This document shows, piece after piece, positions 19,033 through 62,644 of a DNA stretch of 64,000 nt. The notes under the pieces were generated by a model. The model was not told the origin of the DNA. It searched no databases and saw nothing but the letters and a program-made list of their open reading frames with translations. The DNA comes from a virus, in IMG/VR virus record IMGVR_UViG_3300046642_000884, positions 62,001 through 126,000 of that record; one strand, 5' to 3'. The position numbers and the translations under genes were made by a program. The stretch's first letter is position 1. Each line of letters starts with the position of its first letter.

Positions 19033-19539
19033 TTATTTAGTATCCTCGATTACATGGGCCGCCACCGGCTTTTTCAGTTTGGTGGAGACATAGGACATTC
19101 GATGATGACCTCCAATCAACCAGTGGGCGCCAGTCTTGGGATTGTGAAGGACAACAGGTTTTCTCAGTCCCTTGCCTGCCTTCATTTTCTCCTTGATCTT
19201 GTAAGGAGTATTAACATGCTTGAAGTGTTCTCCAGCAGACTGATCGAAGTATTTTTTATGAAGGATTTGTTTCCAGGTTTCTCCGGTGTTGCCGCGCGGC
19301 CCGAACCAACCTATTTTTTTGATATGTTCTCGGCCGAAGTGTTTTTCGATTCCAGCCTTTAAGGCCGCTTTCCACTTCTTCTTATCTCGGAGCTTTTTAA
19401 GTCGTTTTTTAACCCAATCTGGACAGCCAGTTAGTGTCTCTCCAGGTTTACAGCCTTTCTTTAGCTGATACTTTACTTCGGAGTGTTCCTTCTCAGGATT
19501 GGGTTTTTTCCACTTAAGAGTTAGTTTTTCGGACAACAT
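19033..19539 (-). CDS. ParB-like (HHR motif) basic protein
   Basis: 168 residues, very basic. The C-terminal GAHWLIGGHHRMSYV followed by KKPVAAHVIED fits the ParB/sulfiredoxin-like fold (xGHHR motif). In this position, next to virion genes, it may be a head-associated protein. Enzyme activity is unproven. Confidence 0.55.
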   Translation of the reverse strand: MLSEKLTLKWKKPNPEKEHSEVKYQLKKGCKPGETLTGCPDWVKKRLKKLRDKKKWKAALKAGIEKHFGREHIKKIGWFGPRGNTGETWKQILHKKYFDQSAGEHFKHVNTPYKIKEKMKAGKGLRKPVVLHNPKTGAHWLIGGHHRMSYVSTKLKKPVAAHVIEDTK

Positions 19540-19939
19540 CTTTATAACGCTTTAGAACCTTTTTTCCACCCAGTTTTGGGTTGAAGGCGGCGATAGAACC
19601 AGAACCAACACAGTTGGTGGGGGCGTTCTCTTTGATATTCTTGGAAGTCAGCACATTTTTCAGTATCTTGCCCGCATGATGTTTTTGCGCGAGCTTCTCC
19701 ATTTCCTCGTCGGCCGGCGTCATCTGCCCATTTGCTCGTTTCATCTTCATAAGATTAAGATAGGTTTTGAGGTGTTTTTCCCCTGACTTATACATCAATA
19801 TTTCGTTTTCTTTCAGTTTTTTGGGTTTAGGTTTTGGAAACTTCATTTTTTTGAAGTCTTTGACGCGCTTTTCCACCTCATCCGCCTTTTTTTTATTCTT
19901 GGCCGCAATTGCGTCCTGAACTGCTTTGGTTACAAACAT
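19514..19939 (-). CDS. probable virion-associated basic protein
   Basis: 141 residues, Lys-rich. NIKENAPTNCVGSGSIAAF resembles processed N-terminal motifs of T4-like head proteins (PTNxxGxGxIA), with an I-x-E site just before it. Inferred to be an internal or prohead protein. Confidence 0.5.
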   Translation of the reverse strand: MFVTKAVQDAIAAKNKKKADEVEKRVKDFKKMKFPKPKPKKLKENEILMYKSGEKHLKTYLNLMKMKRANGQMTPADEEMEKLAQKHHAGKILKNVLTSKNIKENAPTNCVGSGSIAAFNPKLGGKKVLKRYKDVVRKTNS

Positions 19940-20724: not shown

Positions 20725-21675
20725 TTACGTTTCAGGCAGGACTGCTGAGTTAGCAACTGTACTAGTGCCGTTTGCGATATGTCGATCAATGACTAGCATC
20801 TCATAGGTCACTCGACCAGCTCGCCCGCCGATTGCGCCAGGCGTTGCGTTTACTGCACCACCGGCACTTGCGTCTAGGTTTGCTGTTACGGTCCAAGTTC
20901 CACCAGTGTTACCAATTACTGCGCCATTTGCGGCGTTGGTGAAGACTACAACAACTGCGGTGTTGACCTGGTTGTTGGAGAACTGACCTCCATTTGCTCC
21001 CCATACGATGGCCTGAGTTTCGGTGTTAGAGATACCGCCGGTTGCGTTCGAGGTGAACGAACCAGTAGCGATTTTTCCAGAACCTAGAGCAAAGCTGTTT
21101 CCAGTGTTGGAGATAGTGACGTTGATGACGTTAGCATTGCCGACGTTTGTAAGCGATGAGCTGGAGCCGTTGGCTGAATTCAGTTTGGTAATGTGCTTTT
21201 CTCGATTGAAGCCAACCAAAATAATCGAGGTATTGACGAATGCTGGTCCTCCGAGGATCGAGCCCGGCCACGCAACAGAAGCAATATTGCCGGTGGCATT
21301 TGCAGTAATAATAGCAAAGGCATTGACGCCTTGGCCATTAGATACAGTCACTGTATCACCTGTTAGAAATCCCGAGCCGGTATTTGCGGTAAATGTCTTG
21401 AGCTGGCCTTCCCCTCTAGTTCGAAGAGCCCAGCCTAGACCGTGCGCTTTAGCCGATTCGCCGGAGGTGTTTGCCTTGGCTCGTGCGGTGACAGGGAAGA
21501 TACCACTAACCATCTTTTGAGTCACTCCGTGTATTACTTGTGATCCGGGAGTAACATTTGCCACAAGCGCTAGGTTATTAGCGGTTATTGCAGTTCGGCC
21601 CGAGCCTTGTTGCAATATCTCAGCTCCCCATTTTGGGGCTCCTGTTGTGTTAGCGTTGCTTTTCCATTGTGACAT
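20725..21675 (-). CDS. Asn/Thr/Gly-rich virion protein
   Basis: 316 residues, low in charge, beta-rich with recurring NA-N-TG patterns, like phage fibre, decoration or tail-surface proteins. Preceded by AAGGAGA. A NATAAATA-type site (AATAAATA) lies just upstream. The exact particle role is unknown. Confidence 0.6.
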   Translation of the reverse strand: MSQWKSNANTTGAPKWGAEILQQGSGRTAITANNLALVANVTPGSQVIHGVTQKMVSGIFPVTARAKANTSGESAKAHGLGWALRTRGEGQLKTFTANTGSGFLTGDTVTVSNGQGVNAFAIITANATGNIASVAWPGSILGGPAFVNTSIILVGFNREKHITKLNSANGSSSSLTNVGNANVINVTISNTGNSFALGSGKIATGSFTSNATGGISNTETQAIVWGANGGQFSNNQVNTAVVVVFTNAANGAVIGNTGGTWTVTANLDASAGGAVNATPGAIGGRAGRVTYEMLVIDRHIANGTSTVANSAVLPET

Positions 21676-21705: not shown

Positions 21706-24700
21706 TTAAGCTCTTGGGATACCCTTTAGTGCCCAGTGAACTGGCTTGGGACTGTGTTTTTTACCTTCTAAATGATCGGATAATCCCTTTGCCGATCCCC
21801 ATATCTGCGATACCATTGCTTCTTTTTCGTGAGGTCTTTGAAGCTTCCCATAGTTCTGTAGCACCTTATGGCCAACATTGGGGCTGATGGAGGTCGTTTC
21901 CTTGTTAGAATGCTTTAGGGTTACCGGAGAGCGCAAATCAACGGCTTTCCTGGCGACATTGATAGGGTGCTGATCGCCTTCAGTATCTTGTCCTTTAGCT
22001 CCGGCCTTGCCTTTTGATTTTGAAGCGCCGCCCAGCCCTGATGTTGCTAAGTTCTTTTTAAATGATTTTCCAGTAGCTTCCCCGATTACTCGTCGGATGG
22101 TCTCTTCTTTTTTCACTTTCTTTTTTATCGCTTCTCGTTCAGCTTCGTATTCCTGACCACGACGTTGTTCGGCTTTAGAATCACCATAGATTCCCCAATC
22201 CTTATCCTTTCGAAGATTTCTAAGCGCCTCACGATCATCGCGTTGTCCATAGGAACGTATCTCTCCAGGATGCATTCGTTTATTAATGCGGGAAGCCTGA
22301 CGGAAGCTGATTTCATCTAGGTCGGTTTCTTCGTTATTCCCCCATCTCCGCTTCATCTTGGGGTTGTTGCTCACTAGTTTAAGATAGTCGGGGGCTTTTA
22401 TCTTTTGTCCTGATTTTATCTTGCTCAGACTTAGCGCTGGTTTTTCAGGTTTAGGTTCAGAAGAAGTTCTGCCTGCATCTCCAATAGGTTTATCAACTGT
22501 AGTAGATTGAAAATTCTTTTTGGCTGCCAGCGATTGAGGATCATTATCCCATTTCTTATGCCATGCATCCATTCCGGCTTTACGTTGTTGGCCTCGATCA
22601 ACGATGCTTTTATGTAATACTGCCGAATCAGCAGCAGTTCTTGCTGCTTCTCGTTCTTTTGCAGAACTTGCTCGATCAAGACCCGCAGTTGGTCTTGCTC
22701 CCCATGGTGATGGGGCTGATTTCATTTTTGGACCAGTTGCTCCAACTGTTACTCCCGAAAGTTTCTTTGAGGCTGCTGTTACTCGTGTTGGTCGTTCTTG
22801 TGAGCTTGTTCGGGATTGATCAGTGCCCAATACGCTTCGAATTCCTCGGCCTATTCGGTGTCGCATTGCATAGGCGCCCAAAGCCATTATAAGACGAGCC
22901 CCGCTGCTACTTTCTGTTACTGGTCTTTCTATACGACCTTTTCCAGACTTGGCTAGCTTCATATCCTTATCAGTAGCAACTGATGCAGTTTGTGCGAGGG
23001 TCGGATTGACGATGACTGGAGTTTTTCCGCCGAGCTTTACTTTATCCTCAGGATCAAGTGGTTCGTCTTGTTTCTTGGCTTGTTGCTTGGGAGGTTGCTG
23101 TGTTTGTTGTTTCGGTTGTTTATTCTTTTTTGGGCCAGATAGGTCTTTTCCAGGTCCTGCAGTCGATGACTGATTGCCGCCCCAGTTGGTGCCGTTATCC
23201 TCTCCCATAATTTGGCGGAGCCTGGTAAGGGTTAGACCTTCCTTCATATCCATATCACGTTCTTTGGTGGTGTCGTAACCGGAGTGAGCAAGACGCTCTC
23301 TTTTCGCTGCTTGCTTACGGAAGTTGACTTGCTGACCACTACTATCGCGCTTCGCAACAATAGCTCTAGCTTTTGCTGCTCCGGCAGCTCTCTTGAACTC
23401 AGTTTTTGGTTTGTTCTTGTATTGAGCGCGTAACGACGCAGTATCAGCTTTTGCAGCATAGCGTTTCAGTAATCCAGTTGACAGTTCGTTGACGGTTTCT
23501 TCTTTAGGAGCGCCATATTTTGGTGGAACAAGTGGTCCTCCTGGATAATTGCGATAATTTCCCGCGCGGATGTGATTTTTCCACTTCGCCCAACGGTCAG
23601 TGTTTTGTTTCCATTTCTTGGTATTTTTATCTCGACGTGCTTTCTCCCGCGCTCTATTTTCTTCTGTGCCTTCAACTATTTCGGTTTCTTCATAAGACAT
23701 TCTTGTTGCAACTCTTTTAGATTTTTCAGTGCCAGTTTTTTTGTGTTTATAATAAATGTCTGTTTCATGTGATCTTGTAGAATCATCACGCATAACTGTG
23801 CCAGTAACTTTGTGCCCTTGTTTTTCGAGTGTTTTTACATAATCGTTAACCTTATAAGCGTGGCGGTCATCAGAAGCTCTATATGCGCCTTCGCTGACGG
23901 TTTCTTCTTTACCGACCTGTTGAATAGCTTTTGCAAATCCCTTTTCGCGGTTTGCGATTTTACGTTCATCTTTTGACTGATGGCTAGGTTTGCTACGACG
24001 AACAATATCAGCTAATGATTTTTTAGCATACTGACCAAGCTTTTCGTGGGACAGTTCGTTGACGGTTTCCTTTTTTATTTCTTTCTGTTTTTTCTTAGCA
24101 TCAGCAATCTTTTTATCTATAGCTTGAAGTGTTCCTAGTGCTTCACGATTTTTACCTTCCATACCAGCGCGATGCGCTAATGCTCGACGATATTGGGTCA
24201 GTGCTTCTACATCTCCTTCGTTGATGGTTTCCTCTTTAGGAGTTATCGATTTTCCAGCGCCAATTATCTTAGTGCGACCTTTAGGTCCTGCACCTGGTAA
24301 AAATGTTGCTCTCCCGTGATATCCAGTCCAACGCTTGCCGCTTTGTGATGGCCAGAACTTTCCAGTTTTATCGGTATAACCTACTTCTTTTTCCTCTTTG
24401 GATAATCTATCGCGAGCCCTGTCCATCCCCTTTTTTCGGTTTTTGAGGATTCTTTTTGCCTGGGGGTTGTTTTTTCTCCAAGGCTTATCTAACCAATCGG
24501 CTTGGGTAAAGGCCGCGTCAGAATATCGGTTGAGGGTTCCGTGGCCCAGTTCGTTGACTTCGGTTTCGTCCCCCCATCGTCTTTTTTGGGTCATTTGTAG
24601 CGAGGCAGTATAGGCGGAGCCTCTTTGTTGGTGTTGTTGGGGGGGTGAAGTAGGTTTAGACTGCTTGAACATTTTGGTGGCTTGTTCAATGCCTTTTTTC

Positions 24701-25446
24701 CTTTTTTCAATACTATGAGATGAGGCATTAATATAGGCTAACTTCTTCGCGTCGGATATTTCGTTGACGGCTTCTCTCCTCATTTTCCTGATCCGATCCA
24801 TTATTTCTGCGCCCTTCTTGATATCGTCGGCGCTTATTCCTTTACTGTGATCTACATCGAAGCCTCCGAACTTCTTTACTCCCTTCAGCATATCAGCAAG
24901 CTTTTTTGCTTTTCCCAGCGATTCTTTTGAAGGCTGTTCGTTCATGGTTTCTTCCCCCCGCATATTACCATATCCCATTGCTGCCCCTATTGCAGTTAAT
25001 CCTTGGTGTTTGTGTTTATGTTTTTTATACAACTTCTTTTCTTTCTTTTCTCTTTTCTTTTTAGCCTGTCTGATCATTTCAGCATACTCTGGAGTCCACC
25101 AGGATTCGTGATGTAGCTTCCTTTTAGCTTGATGTAATCCTAAATATCGGTTTTCATACTCTCTGGTCTTTTTCCTTGAACCATTAAACGTTACTGGTAT
25201 ATTTGATACTGCTTTTCTTGCCCTCTTTACATAACGATGAAGGATTTTATCAGACAGTTCGTTGATGGCGTCCTCATTTTTTATATTATCATAAGCCTTT
25301 GTGGAGGCCTCTTCTTTACTATGGCCTTTTTTCATATAACCTTGCATTAAATCCCAATGTTTTTTTAGCCGATTTGCGTTAGCGTCCTTTTCCTTTTTTG
25401 TTGGCCGCATCCAGTTTTTTCCTGTTATTTTGGCTTCGATAATCAT
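21706..25446 (-). CDS. giant modular protein with repeated NELS modules and V/I/L-x-E sites
   Basis: 1246 residues, basic and low complexity. Four modules share NEL(S/G)xxxLxxY (residues 62, 298, 463, 653) and a fifth is NEISDAKKLAY (228). Each module is led by a Glu-rich linker such as KEETVNE. About a dozen linkers end in V/I/L/M-x-E (61, 168, 227, 297, 408, 462, 517, 590, 652, 734, 1043, 1121), like the T4 prohead protease consensus (I/L)-x-E. It lies in the virion block. Inference: an internal-head or scaffold polyprotein cut between modules. Similar modules occur, from memory, in marine T4-like phages without known function. Confidence 0.7.
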   Translation of the reverse strand: MIIEAKITGKNWMRPTKKEKDANANRLKKHWDLMQGYMKKGHSKEEASTKAYDNIKNEDAINELSDKILHRYVKRARKAVSNIPVTFNGSRKKTREYENRYLGLHQAKRKLHHESWWTPEYAEMIRQAKKKREKKEKKLYKKHKHKHQGLTAIGAAMGYGNMRGEETMNEQPSKESLGKAKKLADMLKGVKKFGGFDVDHSKGISADDIKKGAEIMDRIRKMRREAVNEISDAKKLAYINASSHSIEKRKKGIEQATKMFKQSKPTSPPQQHQQRGSAYTASLQMTQKRRWGDETEVNELGHGTLNRYSDAAFTQADWLDKPWRKNNPQAKRILKNRKKGMDRARDRLSKEEKEVGYTDKTGKFWPSQSGKRWTGYHGRATFLPGAGPKGRTKIIGAGKSITPKEETINEGDVEALTQYRRALAHRAGMEGKNREALGTLQAIDKKIADAKKKQKEIKKETVNELSHEKLGQYAKKSLADIVRRSKPSHQSKDERKIANREKGFAKAIQQVGKEETVSEGAYRASDDRHAYKVNDYVKTLEKQGHKVTGTVMRDDSTRSHETDIYYKHKKTGTEKSKRVATRMSYEETEIVEGTEENRAREKARRDKNTKKWKQNTDRWAKWKNHIRAGNYRNYPGGPLVPPKYGAPKEETVNELSTGLLKRYAAKADTASLRAQYKNKPKTEFKRAAGAAKARAIVAKRDSSGQQVNFRKQAAKRERLAHSGYDTTKERDMDMKEGLTLTRLRQIMGEDNGTNWGGNQSSTAGPGKDLSGPKKNKQPKQQTQQPPKQQAKKQDEPLDPEDKVKLGGKTPVIVNPTLAQTASVATDKDMKLAKSGKGRIERPVTESSSGARLIMALGAYAMRHRIGRGIRSVLGTDQSRTSSQERPTRVTAASKKLSGVTVGATGPKMKSAPSPWGARPTAGLDRASSAKEREAARTAADSAVLHKSIVDRGQQRKAGMDAWHKKWDNDPQSLAAKKNFQSTTVDKPIGDAGRTSSEPKPEKPALSLSKIKSGQKIKAPDYLKLVSNNPKMKRRWGNNEETDLDEISFRQASRINKRMHPGEIRSYGQRDDREALRNLRKDKDWGIYGDSKAEQRRGQEYEAEREAIKKKVKKEETIRRVIGEATGKSFKKNLATSGLGGASKSKGKAGAKGQDTEGDQHPINVARKAVDLRSPVTLKHSNKETTSISPNVGHKVLQNYGKLQRPHEKEAMVSQIWGSAKGLSDHLEGKKHSPKPVHWALKGIPRA

Positions 25447-25997
25447 TTCTTGAGGACCTTCCTAATAGTATTCAAGGTCTTCTTATATCCAGGTTCTCCT
25501 GGGGTGTCTTGCTGATAGGTCTTTACCAACGAATCACTGCCTTCCTCACGATCCTTTGCTTCCAGTTCCATTTCATCAAGCAGGTCTGCATCCCATTGTC
25601 GAGCCAGCCCTCCGGCAATAAAACTATTTACCCGATTGAAGGCGTGCTGCTCGTGCGAAAGCATTCCAGGATTATCAGCATAACCACGATTATACACCTC
25701 AATGACTACGTCCAGAGGGATAGAGGCTTTCTCAGCCTTTGTAATAAGCGCTTCAAAGGCTCGTGACGACATTGGCGATTCCTGCATCAACAACTGGCGA
25801 AGCCGTTGATACAGGATTGAGTCATTCAGAATATGATCGGTGATTTTGGAGAAGATTTCGATGGCCAGGTCTCTGTAAACCATCGAGGTAATGCCTTGTG
25901 GTACATCGCCCAGAACGATTCTGGCGTAGGGTAGTTTTTTGATGGGGGCTAGGCCGCTTTCAACGAGCAGGTCGATTTGTGAAAGATTTTGGATCAA
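25443..25997 (-). CDS. conserved-looking virion-block protein
   Basis: 184 residues from a TTG preceded by GGGGAA; helical, soluble, with acidic C-terminal half. Followed by the giant modular gene with an ATGA overlap, so the two are translated together. A TATAAATA promoter precedes it by 31 nt. No family recognised. Confidence 0.6.
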   Translation of the reverse strand: MIQNLSQIDLLVESGLAPIKKLPYARIVLGDVPQGITSMVYRDLAIEIFSKITDHILNDSILYQRLRQLLMQESPMSSRAFEALITKAEKASIPLDVVIEVYNRGYADNPGMLSHEQHAFNRVNSFIAGGLARQWDADLLDEMELEAKDREEGSDSLVKTYQQDTPGEPGYKKTLNTIRKVLKK

Positions 25998-26028: not shown

Positions 26029-26036
26029 TATTTATA
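26029..26036 (-). promoter_or_regulatory. T4-late-like promoter
   Basis: TATAAATA on the minus strand upstream of the 184-residue and 1246-residue virion-block genes. Confidence 0.65.
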
Positions 26037-26040
26037 GTTT

Positions 26041-27237
26041 TTATTTTTTGTAAATATCGGCACCAACGGCCCCTTTCTTAGGATGACCGCCACCATACCA
26101 GCTACTCGGACCACGATATTTTATTCTGGTTGGTCCTTTGAGTTGAGCAATAGCTACCATTGCACGATCTTCTGGACCAGCGGGTTGACCAGCTTTGTTG
26201 GTGTTTATAGAGGCTTGATAGCTTTTGCCTCGTGAACCATAACCTGGTTGTCCTTTATATTGGCCAGTCTTGAACTTATGGATTCGTGATACTGCCTTTT
26301 CGGCCCAGCCTTCATCTACTTCAGTTTCTTCTTTTTTCAATCTTTCTACACGGCGTTTATCGTATTCTTTATTACGTTGTCGACCCCCGAGTTGCCATGG
26401 CTCCTTATAGTAGACTGCAGCTCCAGTTGCCTTACTTCTTAATCGAGATGATTGCGGCCAATAGGTTCCTGGTCGTTGTTCTGAGGAACCGCGGTAGCGA
26501 AGCACTACTTTCTTGCCTACTTTGCCGGCTTCGCCTTTGTGATAATCTAGTACCTTGCGATCGGCCTCACTAGCAGGTTGACCTCCCTTGAAGTTGATAT
26601 AGCCTTTGGTGCTTTTTCGATATTCAGGTTTCTGTCGTTTGCTGCCGCTGTAACCCTTGACTGAAACAGTTCGAACGTCTTCGTCTACTTCAGTTTCTTC
26701 TTTTTTAGCGACATTTGCCTTTGCGAGGCTTTGGTCTCGTTTGGTGCGCTTTTCACGTTCTTCCCGACCAGATTCCTCATAGCTTTTATAGGGAAGAAAT
26801 TTAGGCTTACCGTTCTCCTTTGACCAATATCCGCCAGTTCCGTGTACCTTTCCGGCTTCGGTTATTTCGGCTTCTTCTTTGACGTGTTTGGCTTTTGAGT
26901 AGTGAGAGATGTGGAACATTCGGGGGGAAGCTCCTGTTTGGCCATACATATCACCTTCTGGCGCAATATGACCAGATGAATGGTGCCGCATATCTCCTTC
27001 GTGGCACTCGCCGGTTCGGGTGTTATGCCAGACATTTTGGCTCATCGGGCGACTAATTGCTTTATTATATGAAGGATGTTTTTCGTTTCGGGATACACCT
27101 TTTAACAACTTCCATGTATCGCCATTATGATCTTTGGCTTCTTCGATTTGGCTTTCGGGTTCATCCTGTTTAGTTACAGAAACCTTTGTTTCGTGTAGTC
27201 GCTGCGCCGTTGGATTTGTAAAATATGCCTGAACCAT
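26041..27237 (-). CDS. modular virion-block protein with duplicated domain
   Basis: 398 residues. Two related modules of roughly 100 residues each start with KKEETEVDE and share GGQPASEADRKV / AGQPAGPEDRAM and VLRYRGSS / IKYRGPSS, then a TGAAVYYKE / VGADIYKK end. ITE and VDE sites precede the modules, as in the 1246-residue protein, so similar proteolytic processing is possible. Ribosome binding site CAGGAG. Confidence 0.6.
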   Translation of the reverse strand: MVQAYFTNPTAQRLHETKVSVTKQDEPESQIEEAKDHNGDTWKLLKGVSRNEKHPSYNKAISRPMSQNVWHNTRTGECHEGDMRHHSSGHIAPEGDMYGQTGASPRMFHISHYSKAKHVKEEAEITEAGKVHGTGGYWSKENGKPKFLPYKSYEESGREEREKRTKRDQSLAKANVAKKEETEVDEDVRTVSVKGYSGSKRQKPEYRKSTKGYINFKGGQPASEADRKVLDYHKGEAGKVGKKVVLRYRGSSEQRPGTYWPQSSRLRSKATGAAVYYKEPWQLGGRQRNKEYDKRRVERLKKEETEVDEGWAEKAVSRIHKFKTGQYKGQPGYGSRGKSYQASINTNKAGQPAGPEDRAMVAIAQLKGPTRIKYRGPSSWYGGGHPKKGAVGADIYKK

Positions 27238-44379: not shown

Positions 44380-44499
44380 GGGCCTGTAGGAGAGTGGTTA
44401 ATCCGCTCGCGAGGTTCGTTGAACTTGATCAGTTCAGTCTTTGTTTTGATCAGACAATGCTCGCAATGAGAGACGTGGGTTCGACCCCCACCAGGCCTT
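44380..44499 (+). tRNA. interrupted tRNA-like gene
   Basis: Acceptor GGGCCTG (44380-44386) pairs with CAGGCCT (44492-44498). D arm is GGA-GAGTGGTTAA-TCC; T arm is GTGGG-TTCGACC-CCCAC. Between them 70 nt are present instead of about 27. GCGAG (44409-44413) and CTCGC (44460-44464) could pair as an anticodon stem enclosing 46 nt. That insert holds a hairpin TGAAC-TTGATCA-GTTCA with U33 and anticodon GAT. GCTCGC is directly repeated at both insert ends. CCA is not encoded. It could be an intron-bearing tRNA, an insertion-disrupted tRNA or a tRNA-like RNA. Confidence 0.5.
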
Positions 44500-44513
44500 G
44501 CCGAACTTTCCAC

Positions 44514-62115: not shown

Positions 62116-62144
62116 ATAATATTCGATGTTTTATACTATGTCAA
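62116..62144 (-). promoter_or_regulatory. sigma70-like promoter
   Basis: TTGACA, 17-nt spacer, TATTAT, 9 nt before the ATG of the GIY-YIG fragment. Also able to drive gp47 and gp46 downstream. Confidence 0.7.
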
Positions 62145-62644
62145 GCCTTTTTTGGTTTGACGTTATAAGATAAGCCTTTTTTCTTGGCCGCCACCTTTTC
62201 TTCGTAGTTGGCAATTACTGAGTCGCTCAACTCGTTTGGTTCAATGCCTTCTATCTCCTGGTTGGTGAACTGGGATCGAAAGAATTTATGTTTAATGTAG
62301 TTAACTTTTTGCTCGTCCTTGATGCGTTTCTTCTGGGCGTTGATGGCAACAGTTGTTAGATAGGCAAAGGCTCCGGCCGAGGACTTTTTGTGGTTGAACT
62401 TATGGACTGCGTAGCAACATCGCTCCACTGCATCCAGGATCATTTCATCTCGATAGGTGTAGGACTCGAAGTTGAAGTTAAAACCTCGGGTCAGACGGTT
62501 GCAGATATTGTAGATGCATTCGCCGATATATCGCGGCATTGTTGGCATTGCCAGTTCATTTCGCCTGTTCTTTCGGCACAGTTTCTGGTAGTCGACTATT
62601 GCTTTGGTTAGGTCCGCATTATTGACGTAATTTTTCTTCTTCAT
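62141..62644 (-). CDS. 55: late sigma factor gp55
   Basis: 167 residues. KNYVNNADLTKAIVDYQKLC, MPRYIGECIYNICNRL, YTYRDEMILDAVERCCYAV and AGAFAYLTTVAINAQKKRI match T4-like gp55, the minimal sigma factor recognising TATAAATA late promoters. This supports the late octamers listed elsewhere. Confidence 0.9.
   Translation of the reverse strand: MKKKNYVNNADLTKAIVDYQKLCRKNRRNELAMPTMPRYIGECIYNICNRLTRGFNFNFESYTYRDEMILDAVERCCYAVHKFNHKKSSAGAFAYLTTVAINAQKKRIKDEQKVNYIKHKFFRSQFTNQEIEGIEPNELSDSVIANYEEKVAAKKKGLSYNVKPKKA

Follow-up and report, generated by a model that had tools for sequence, protein, structure and literature searches.

A basic modular protein of a T4-like phage with acidic hydrophobic-x-E linkers: a probable head protein and possible substrate of gp21

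The 1246-aa protein described here is very likely a late, modular virion protein from the inside of the phage head, as judged from its genomic context and its homologues, and the linkers between its modules may be cut by the gp21 prohead protease of the same phage. Its gene lies in the window, the 64,000-nucleotide stretch that was analysed (bases 62001-126000 of IMG/VR record IMGVR_UViG_3300046642_000884, which has a length of 184,965 bases). The ORF singled out in an initial annotation of this DNA is real, and its strand, which that annotation did not give, is minus (Table 1). The basic character that the annotation gave to its presumed peptides was borne out: the protein (140 kDa, no Cys) has a pI of 10.1 with K+R = 274 vs D+E = 153, and in a charge-hydropathy plot the whole chain and all predicted pieces of more than 4 residues fall on the side predicted to be disordered; the pieces, too, are basic. 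Peptides derived from the protein might act in DNA condensation, in counter-defence or in the take-over of the host, and their charge would favour DNA binding. Searches of Pfam, NCBIfam and PDB gave zero matches and PHROG nothing significant (the top match, E 0.024, was disregarded), and direct relatives were found neither by tblastn in phages, nor by pattern scans of IMG/VR, nor in bacterial genomes.

Table 1. Features of the window around the modular gene and in its late-expression context (window coordinates; the arrow marks the bond after the glutamate of a site).
Feature	Position	Strand	Remark
Modular basic protein gene (P0001), 1246 aa	21706..25446	-	ORF, ATG start
N-terminus MIIE↓AKITGKN	25435..25446	-	resembles [LI]xE↓A end of T4 capsid targeting sequence; resemblance only
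NELS module 1, residues 56-112	25111..25281	-	joint DAINE↓LS, residue 63
NELS module 2, residues 222-261	24664..24783	-	joint AVNE↓IS
NELS module 3, residues 292-349	24400..24573	-	joint TEVNE↓LG
NELS module 4, residues 403-455	24082..24240	-	joint EETINE↓GD
NELS module 5, residues 457-512	23911..24078	-	joint KETVNE↓LS
NELS module 6, residues 647-698	23353..23508	-	joint EETVNE↓LS
NELS module 7 (divergent), residues 1038-1095	22162..22335	-	joint EETDLDE↓IS
RRVIGE↓ATG, internal strict [LIM]xE↓A site, residue 1123	22078..22095	-	motif match
184-aa ORF, first gene of operon with the 1246-aa gene	25443..25997	-	weak match to phage cytidyltransferases, phrog_3041, E 3.5e-4
398-aa sister modular protein	26041..27237	-	linkers EEAEITE↓A, EETEVDE↓D, EETEVDE↓G
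DUF6267 + cytidyltransferase fusion, 655 aa	27262..29229	-	cytidyltransferase homologues in S-SM1, S-SZBM1, S-CREM2 virions
316-aa downstream gene	20725..21675	-	position and appearance like virion structural protein S-SZBM1_136
TATAAATA, T4-type late promoter	26029..26036	-	39 nt before operon 25443-25997 / 21706-25446; sequence only
gp55-like late sigma factor	62141..62644	-	E 2e-16, query S-SM1 gp55

Seven units of about 40-58 aa carry the NEL(S/G)xxxLxxY pattern that the initial annotation had recognized, with the fuller consensus NEL(S/G)xxxLxxYxxxA...RxxGxxxA; the module profile was built from these seven copies, whose own scores are thus high by construction. The predicted structure of the NELS module consists of two helices (pLDDT 74, pTM 0.42). 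About a dozen protease-like sites had also been claimed, and here the placement of the sites holds up but their number does not carry weight. The motif [VILM]-x-E occurs 15 times, 13 of these in linkers or module joints, the other two being MIIE↓A at the N-terminus and RVIGE↓A; a dozen such sites are unremarkable by themselves because shuffles of the protein give 13.5 +/- 3.3, and the bare count was discarded as evidence. The strict form [IL]-x-E is not enriched either (6 observed vs 8.2 expected in the shuffled protein). The linker signal resides in placement and in a common EET context, the number of sites being uninformative: the composite linker E[ED][TA]x0-2[VILM]xE was observed 7 times vs 0.05 expected by shuffling, and [ND]E[LI][ST] 5 times vs 0.10.

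A T4-like gene set is found at 132-145 kb of the record, in which the gp21 protease, gp22 scaffold and gp23 capsid genes were identified by profile and those for portal, sheath, tube and terminase by eye and position. The phage prohead protease postulated in the initial annotation is therefore encoded in the same genome, as a gp21-type enzyme (Peptidase S77, E 9e-34; record G000:C1:135259-135714). An alignment covering 58 phages was used to infer the maturation sites of gp23: almost without exception they read L-x-E↓A, and D never stands at P2. The site of the studied phage is FLLRE↓AAP, and L/I-x-E is the processing motif given for T4 gp21 in PMC9026906. The linkers had been called close to this consensus, and hydrophobic-x-E is common to them and the gp23 sites. 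They differ from the latter in that P3 is V, I or L (V in 7 of 15 tabulated linkers of the studied phage), P2 is mostly D or N, and P1' is varied, which counts against simple cleavage. Cutting by gp21 at many of the linkers is plausible, at or slightly under an even balance of probability.

The ATG of the 1246-aa gene overlaps the stop codon of the preceding 184-aa ORF (ATGA), the 398-aa sister gene is located two genes upstream, and a second sister, a 289-aa protein with the same linkers, is encoded between the portal and gp21 genes. The sequence TATAAATA is the T4 late promoter. The minus strand of the window holds 9 copies where 2.4 are expected, the plus strand a single one, and the motif stands 23-46 nt ahead of the genes for gp22, gp23, portal, tube, sheath and the 289-aa sister, a distance comparable to the 39 nt seen here. 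This predicted promoter and the gp55 homologue support the earlier designation of a late gene. The 316-aa downstream gene gave no match in profile searches; S-SZBM1_136, to which it is likened in Table 1, is a virion structural protein that comes after the modular gene in S-SZBM1. The 184-aa ORF resembles a C-terminal module of phage cytidyltransferases, as if split off as a gene of its own before the 1246-aa gene.

Basic modular proteins also come after the DUF6267 and cytidyltransferase genes in Stenotrophomonas phage DLP6 and in cultured Kyanoviridae. Several of them share the linker type (EEVELDE↓G, EEIEIDE↓M, EEVDQIDE↓E), and the order of this gene block is kept among the cultured phages. 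Mass spectrometry detected the cytidyltransferase T4-GC190 in purified S-SM1 virions (PMC3037559), the cytidyltransferase and S-SZBM1_139 in purified S-SZBM1 virions (PMC9146016), and the cytidyltransferase and modular ORF160, which has the linker EETEISE↓G, in purified S-CREM2 virions (PMC10665884). S-SZBM1_139 is a 457-aa protein whose gene directly follows that of the cytidyltransferase, and it was matched to the virion data by length and position. Homologous or corresponding proteins of relatives are thus present in virions, in line with the initial proposal of a virion protein, although both the S-CREM2 paper (PMC10665884) and the S-SCSM1 paper caution that strongly expressed proteins may co-purify with virions. 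The virion cytidyltransferases start with MKKFSAFLNE↓A (S-SM1), MRFRQFIIE↓A (S-SZBM1) and MKNFSSFLTE↓A (S-CREM2), and these starts closely resemble the capsid targeting sequence of T4, in which the motif for processing is L/I-x-E (PMC9026906). The T4 form MKxxxxF(I/L)xE↓A spans about 10 residues, whereas the start of the 1246-aa protein, MIIE↓A, has only 4. In S-CREM2, ORF160 (L137:12343-13236) has one module with KVKARYDVWPSAYASG and another with CWPGYEKKGTKK...NNCV, and short C-W-x-G-Y / C-W-D modules like these are present in proteins of Melnitz, C48C1, P-TIM40 and S-SZBM1.

Outside its training set, the NELS profile matched SWZG_00082 of S-SKS1 (682 aa, 31 bits), and this single 31-bit module match is the tie between the 1246-aa protein and S-SKS1. 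The profile proved too divergent for a scan of the collection. As baits, the DUF7207 neighbour found contigs without NELS modules, the 184-aa ORF gave no match, and the contigs matched by the DUF6267 neighbour stop short of modular genes. SWZG_00082 and S-SZBM1_139 have PHROG families in common (phrog_27523 / phrog_9737), and 36 IMG/VR relatives of SWZG_00082 contain the same modules in differing combinations; these architectures are indicative, as single-linkage clustering of the S-SKS1 family pieces merged some modules where the cut pattern had missed long linkers. Among 200 mosaic breakpoints, 55% are no more than 3 residues away from a linker of the form EE...[ILVM]xE vs 23% at random; the nominal P value of 4e-22 overstates this, the proteins being related and the breakpoints not independent. 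The worst misses inspected were linkers outside the search pattern, and a first test with short linker patterns was weaker (49% vs 23% within 8 aa). As read from these mosaics, an exchange of modules at linkers is shown for the relatives. The S-SKS1-type proteins (L100-L135) also have a Ser/Gly tract of variable length, SSSSSSDSGSSSS, between their acidic N-terminal part and the module array.

The initial annotation had tied its proposal to conservation of the x-E joints, and [VILM]-x-E is indeed kept in the S-SKS1 family despite differing upstream sequence, a result that refers to the wider module class, an ortholog of the 1246-aa protein itself not having been found. The clearest case is the AMSSYD module: upstream of it, ten listed 12-mers, several of them unrelated, all end in [VLM]-[DS]-E, an outcome that resembles selection for a site more than inheritance of a spacer.

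The joints might instead be products of recombination. In the 1246-aa gene the linker codons are nearly identical at silent positions, with ACC in 8/8 (background 26%), GTC in 5/6 (13%) and AAC in 7/8 (48%), and direct repeats of 19-41 nt are found at the linkers. This likeness at silent positions indicates that it was as DNA that the linkers spread, and that they act, or once acted, as recombination joints; because they are alike at the DNA level, part of their uniformity is explicable by recombination alone. The linkers might then be recombination joints without cleavage in an intact, disordered DNA-binding chain that is packaged or bound to scaffolding. The position of the mosaic breaks and the departure of the linker residues from gp23 cleavage sites suit this explanation as well. 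Across distant phages, however, the linker DNA differs and [VIL]-[DNS]-E is retained, and DNA homology alone would not need the common ending of the ten AMSSYD upstream sequences; we regard an uncleaved chain as rather unlikely. Cutting and recombination are in any case compatible, since modules become exchangeable when their joints can be cut and are also homologous.

Cleavage could also be confined to the sites most like those of gp23 (MIIE↓A, RVIGE↓A and perhaps QIMGE↓D), yielding one or two large internal proteins and a tail of about 120 aa, with the linkers as flexible spacers. Whereas MIIE↓A and RVIGE↓A do fit the L-x-E↓A pattern of gp23 and best resemble it and the capsid-targeting-like starts of the virion cytidyltransferases, strict [LIM]xE↓A sites number two in the 1246-aa protein (residues 4 and 1123) vs 0.98 expected, which is not significant (gp22 has 5 vs 1.0 expected), and they would leave the conserved joints unexplained, so that so limited a processing appears distinctly improbable. 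Still further from what we expect is a scaffold or core protein in the manner of T4 gp67 and gp68, which would be in the prohead, be degraded and mostly expelled, and have no role after assembly. The T4 gp67 and gp68 genes lie between portal and gp21, as does the gene of the 289-aa sister. According to PMC9026906, the T4 core proteins gp22, gp67 and gp68 are cut by gp21 to several fragments that mostly leave the head. They are, however, not known as modular repeats, profile searches did not detect similarity to any of the three, and modular counterparts were detected in purified mature virions, though the peptides could be remnants.

Our working model, about which we are evenly divided, is that of a late, head-internal modular protein of a T4-superfamily phage whose chain is cut by gp21 at some or most linkers. 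The modular class to which it belongs is encoded in two places, one following the DUF6267/cytidyltransferase genes and the other located between portal and gp21. Phages would gain, lose and reorder its modules as cassettes; in the 1246-aa protein these small, basic units, mostly helical or disordered, are strung together by acidic linkers that end in [VIL]-[DNS]-E. The full chain would be packed in the prohead core, perhaps helped by its N-terminus; gp21 would cut the linkers during head maturation, probably with unequal efficiency, and basic peptides of about 50-120 aa would remain associated with the DNA and might be ejected along with it. We infer the internal location, the cutting and the DNA association of the 1246-aa protein. 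In its strongest form, the model describes a true head polyprotein system of T4-superfamily, mainly marine, phages, in which swappable basic peptides are freed by gp21 at joints that double as recombination sites, giving a cocktail of packaged or injected peptides that could be exchanged without disturbing assembly; this we put forward tentatively and hold to be somewhat less probable than not.

Several known systems come close to such an arrangement. The T4 internal proteins IPI-III and Alt are late, basic and packed in the prohead, have an N-terminal (I/L)xE↓A end trimmed by gp21, and can be ejected into the host (PMC9026906); the internal proteins are single small proteins with one cut near the N-terminus, whereas the present array has a mass of 140 kDa and about a dozen joints in its linkers. 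In phiKZ and SPN3US, many inner-body and ejection proteins are packaged and cut after x-x-E by a gp21-related protease, but the phiKZ motif is S/A-x-E, the phages belong to another group, and no shuffled cassettes are described for them in the text consulted (PMC9026906). SWZG_00082 with its IMG/VR relatives and S-SZBM1_139 share the linker type and the shuffled modules, including a NELS-type module in SWZG_00082; they have fewer modules, and both their acidic N-terminal part and their Ala/Lys/Ser-rich middle are missing from the 1246-aa protein. An earlier description of the modular class was not found in the literature searched, which comprised open-licence papers. Should cleavage occur at the joints, a single gene would yield a dozen or more small head proteins in equal amounts, and recombination could add more. 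Some of the sea's most abundant viruses would then possess a plug-in system for packaged or injected peptides, and many "hypothetical" proteins encoded by cyanophages and SAR11 phages would gain a role.

Two small Lys-rich ORFs further downstream (window 19033-19539 and 19514-19939) are candidates for additional late virion proteins, and the latter has TATAAATA 48 nt upstream. A tRNA-Gln of unusual length (92 nt) is predicted on the plus strand at window 44411-44502, away from the tRNA cluster that occupies 35-915 of the minus strand.
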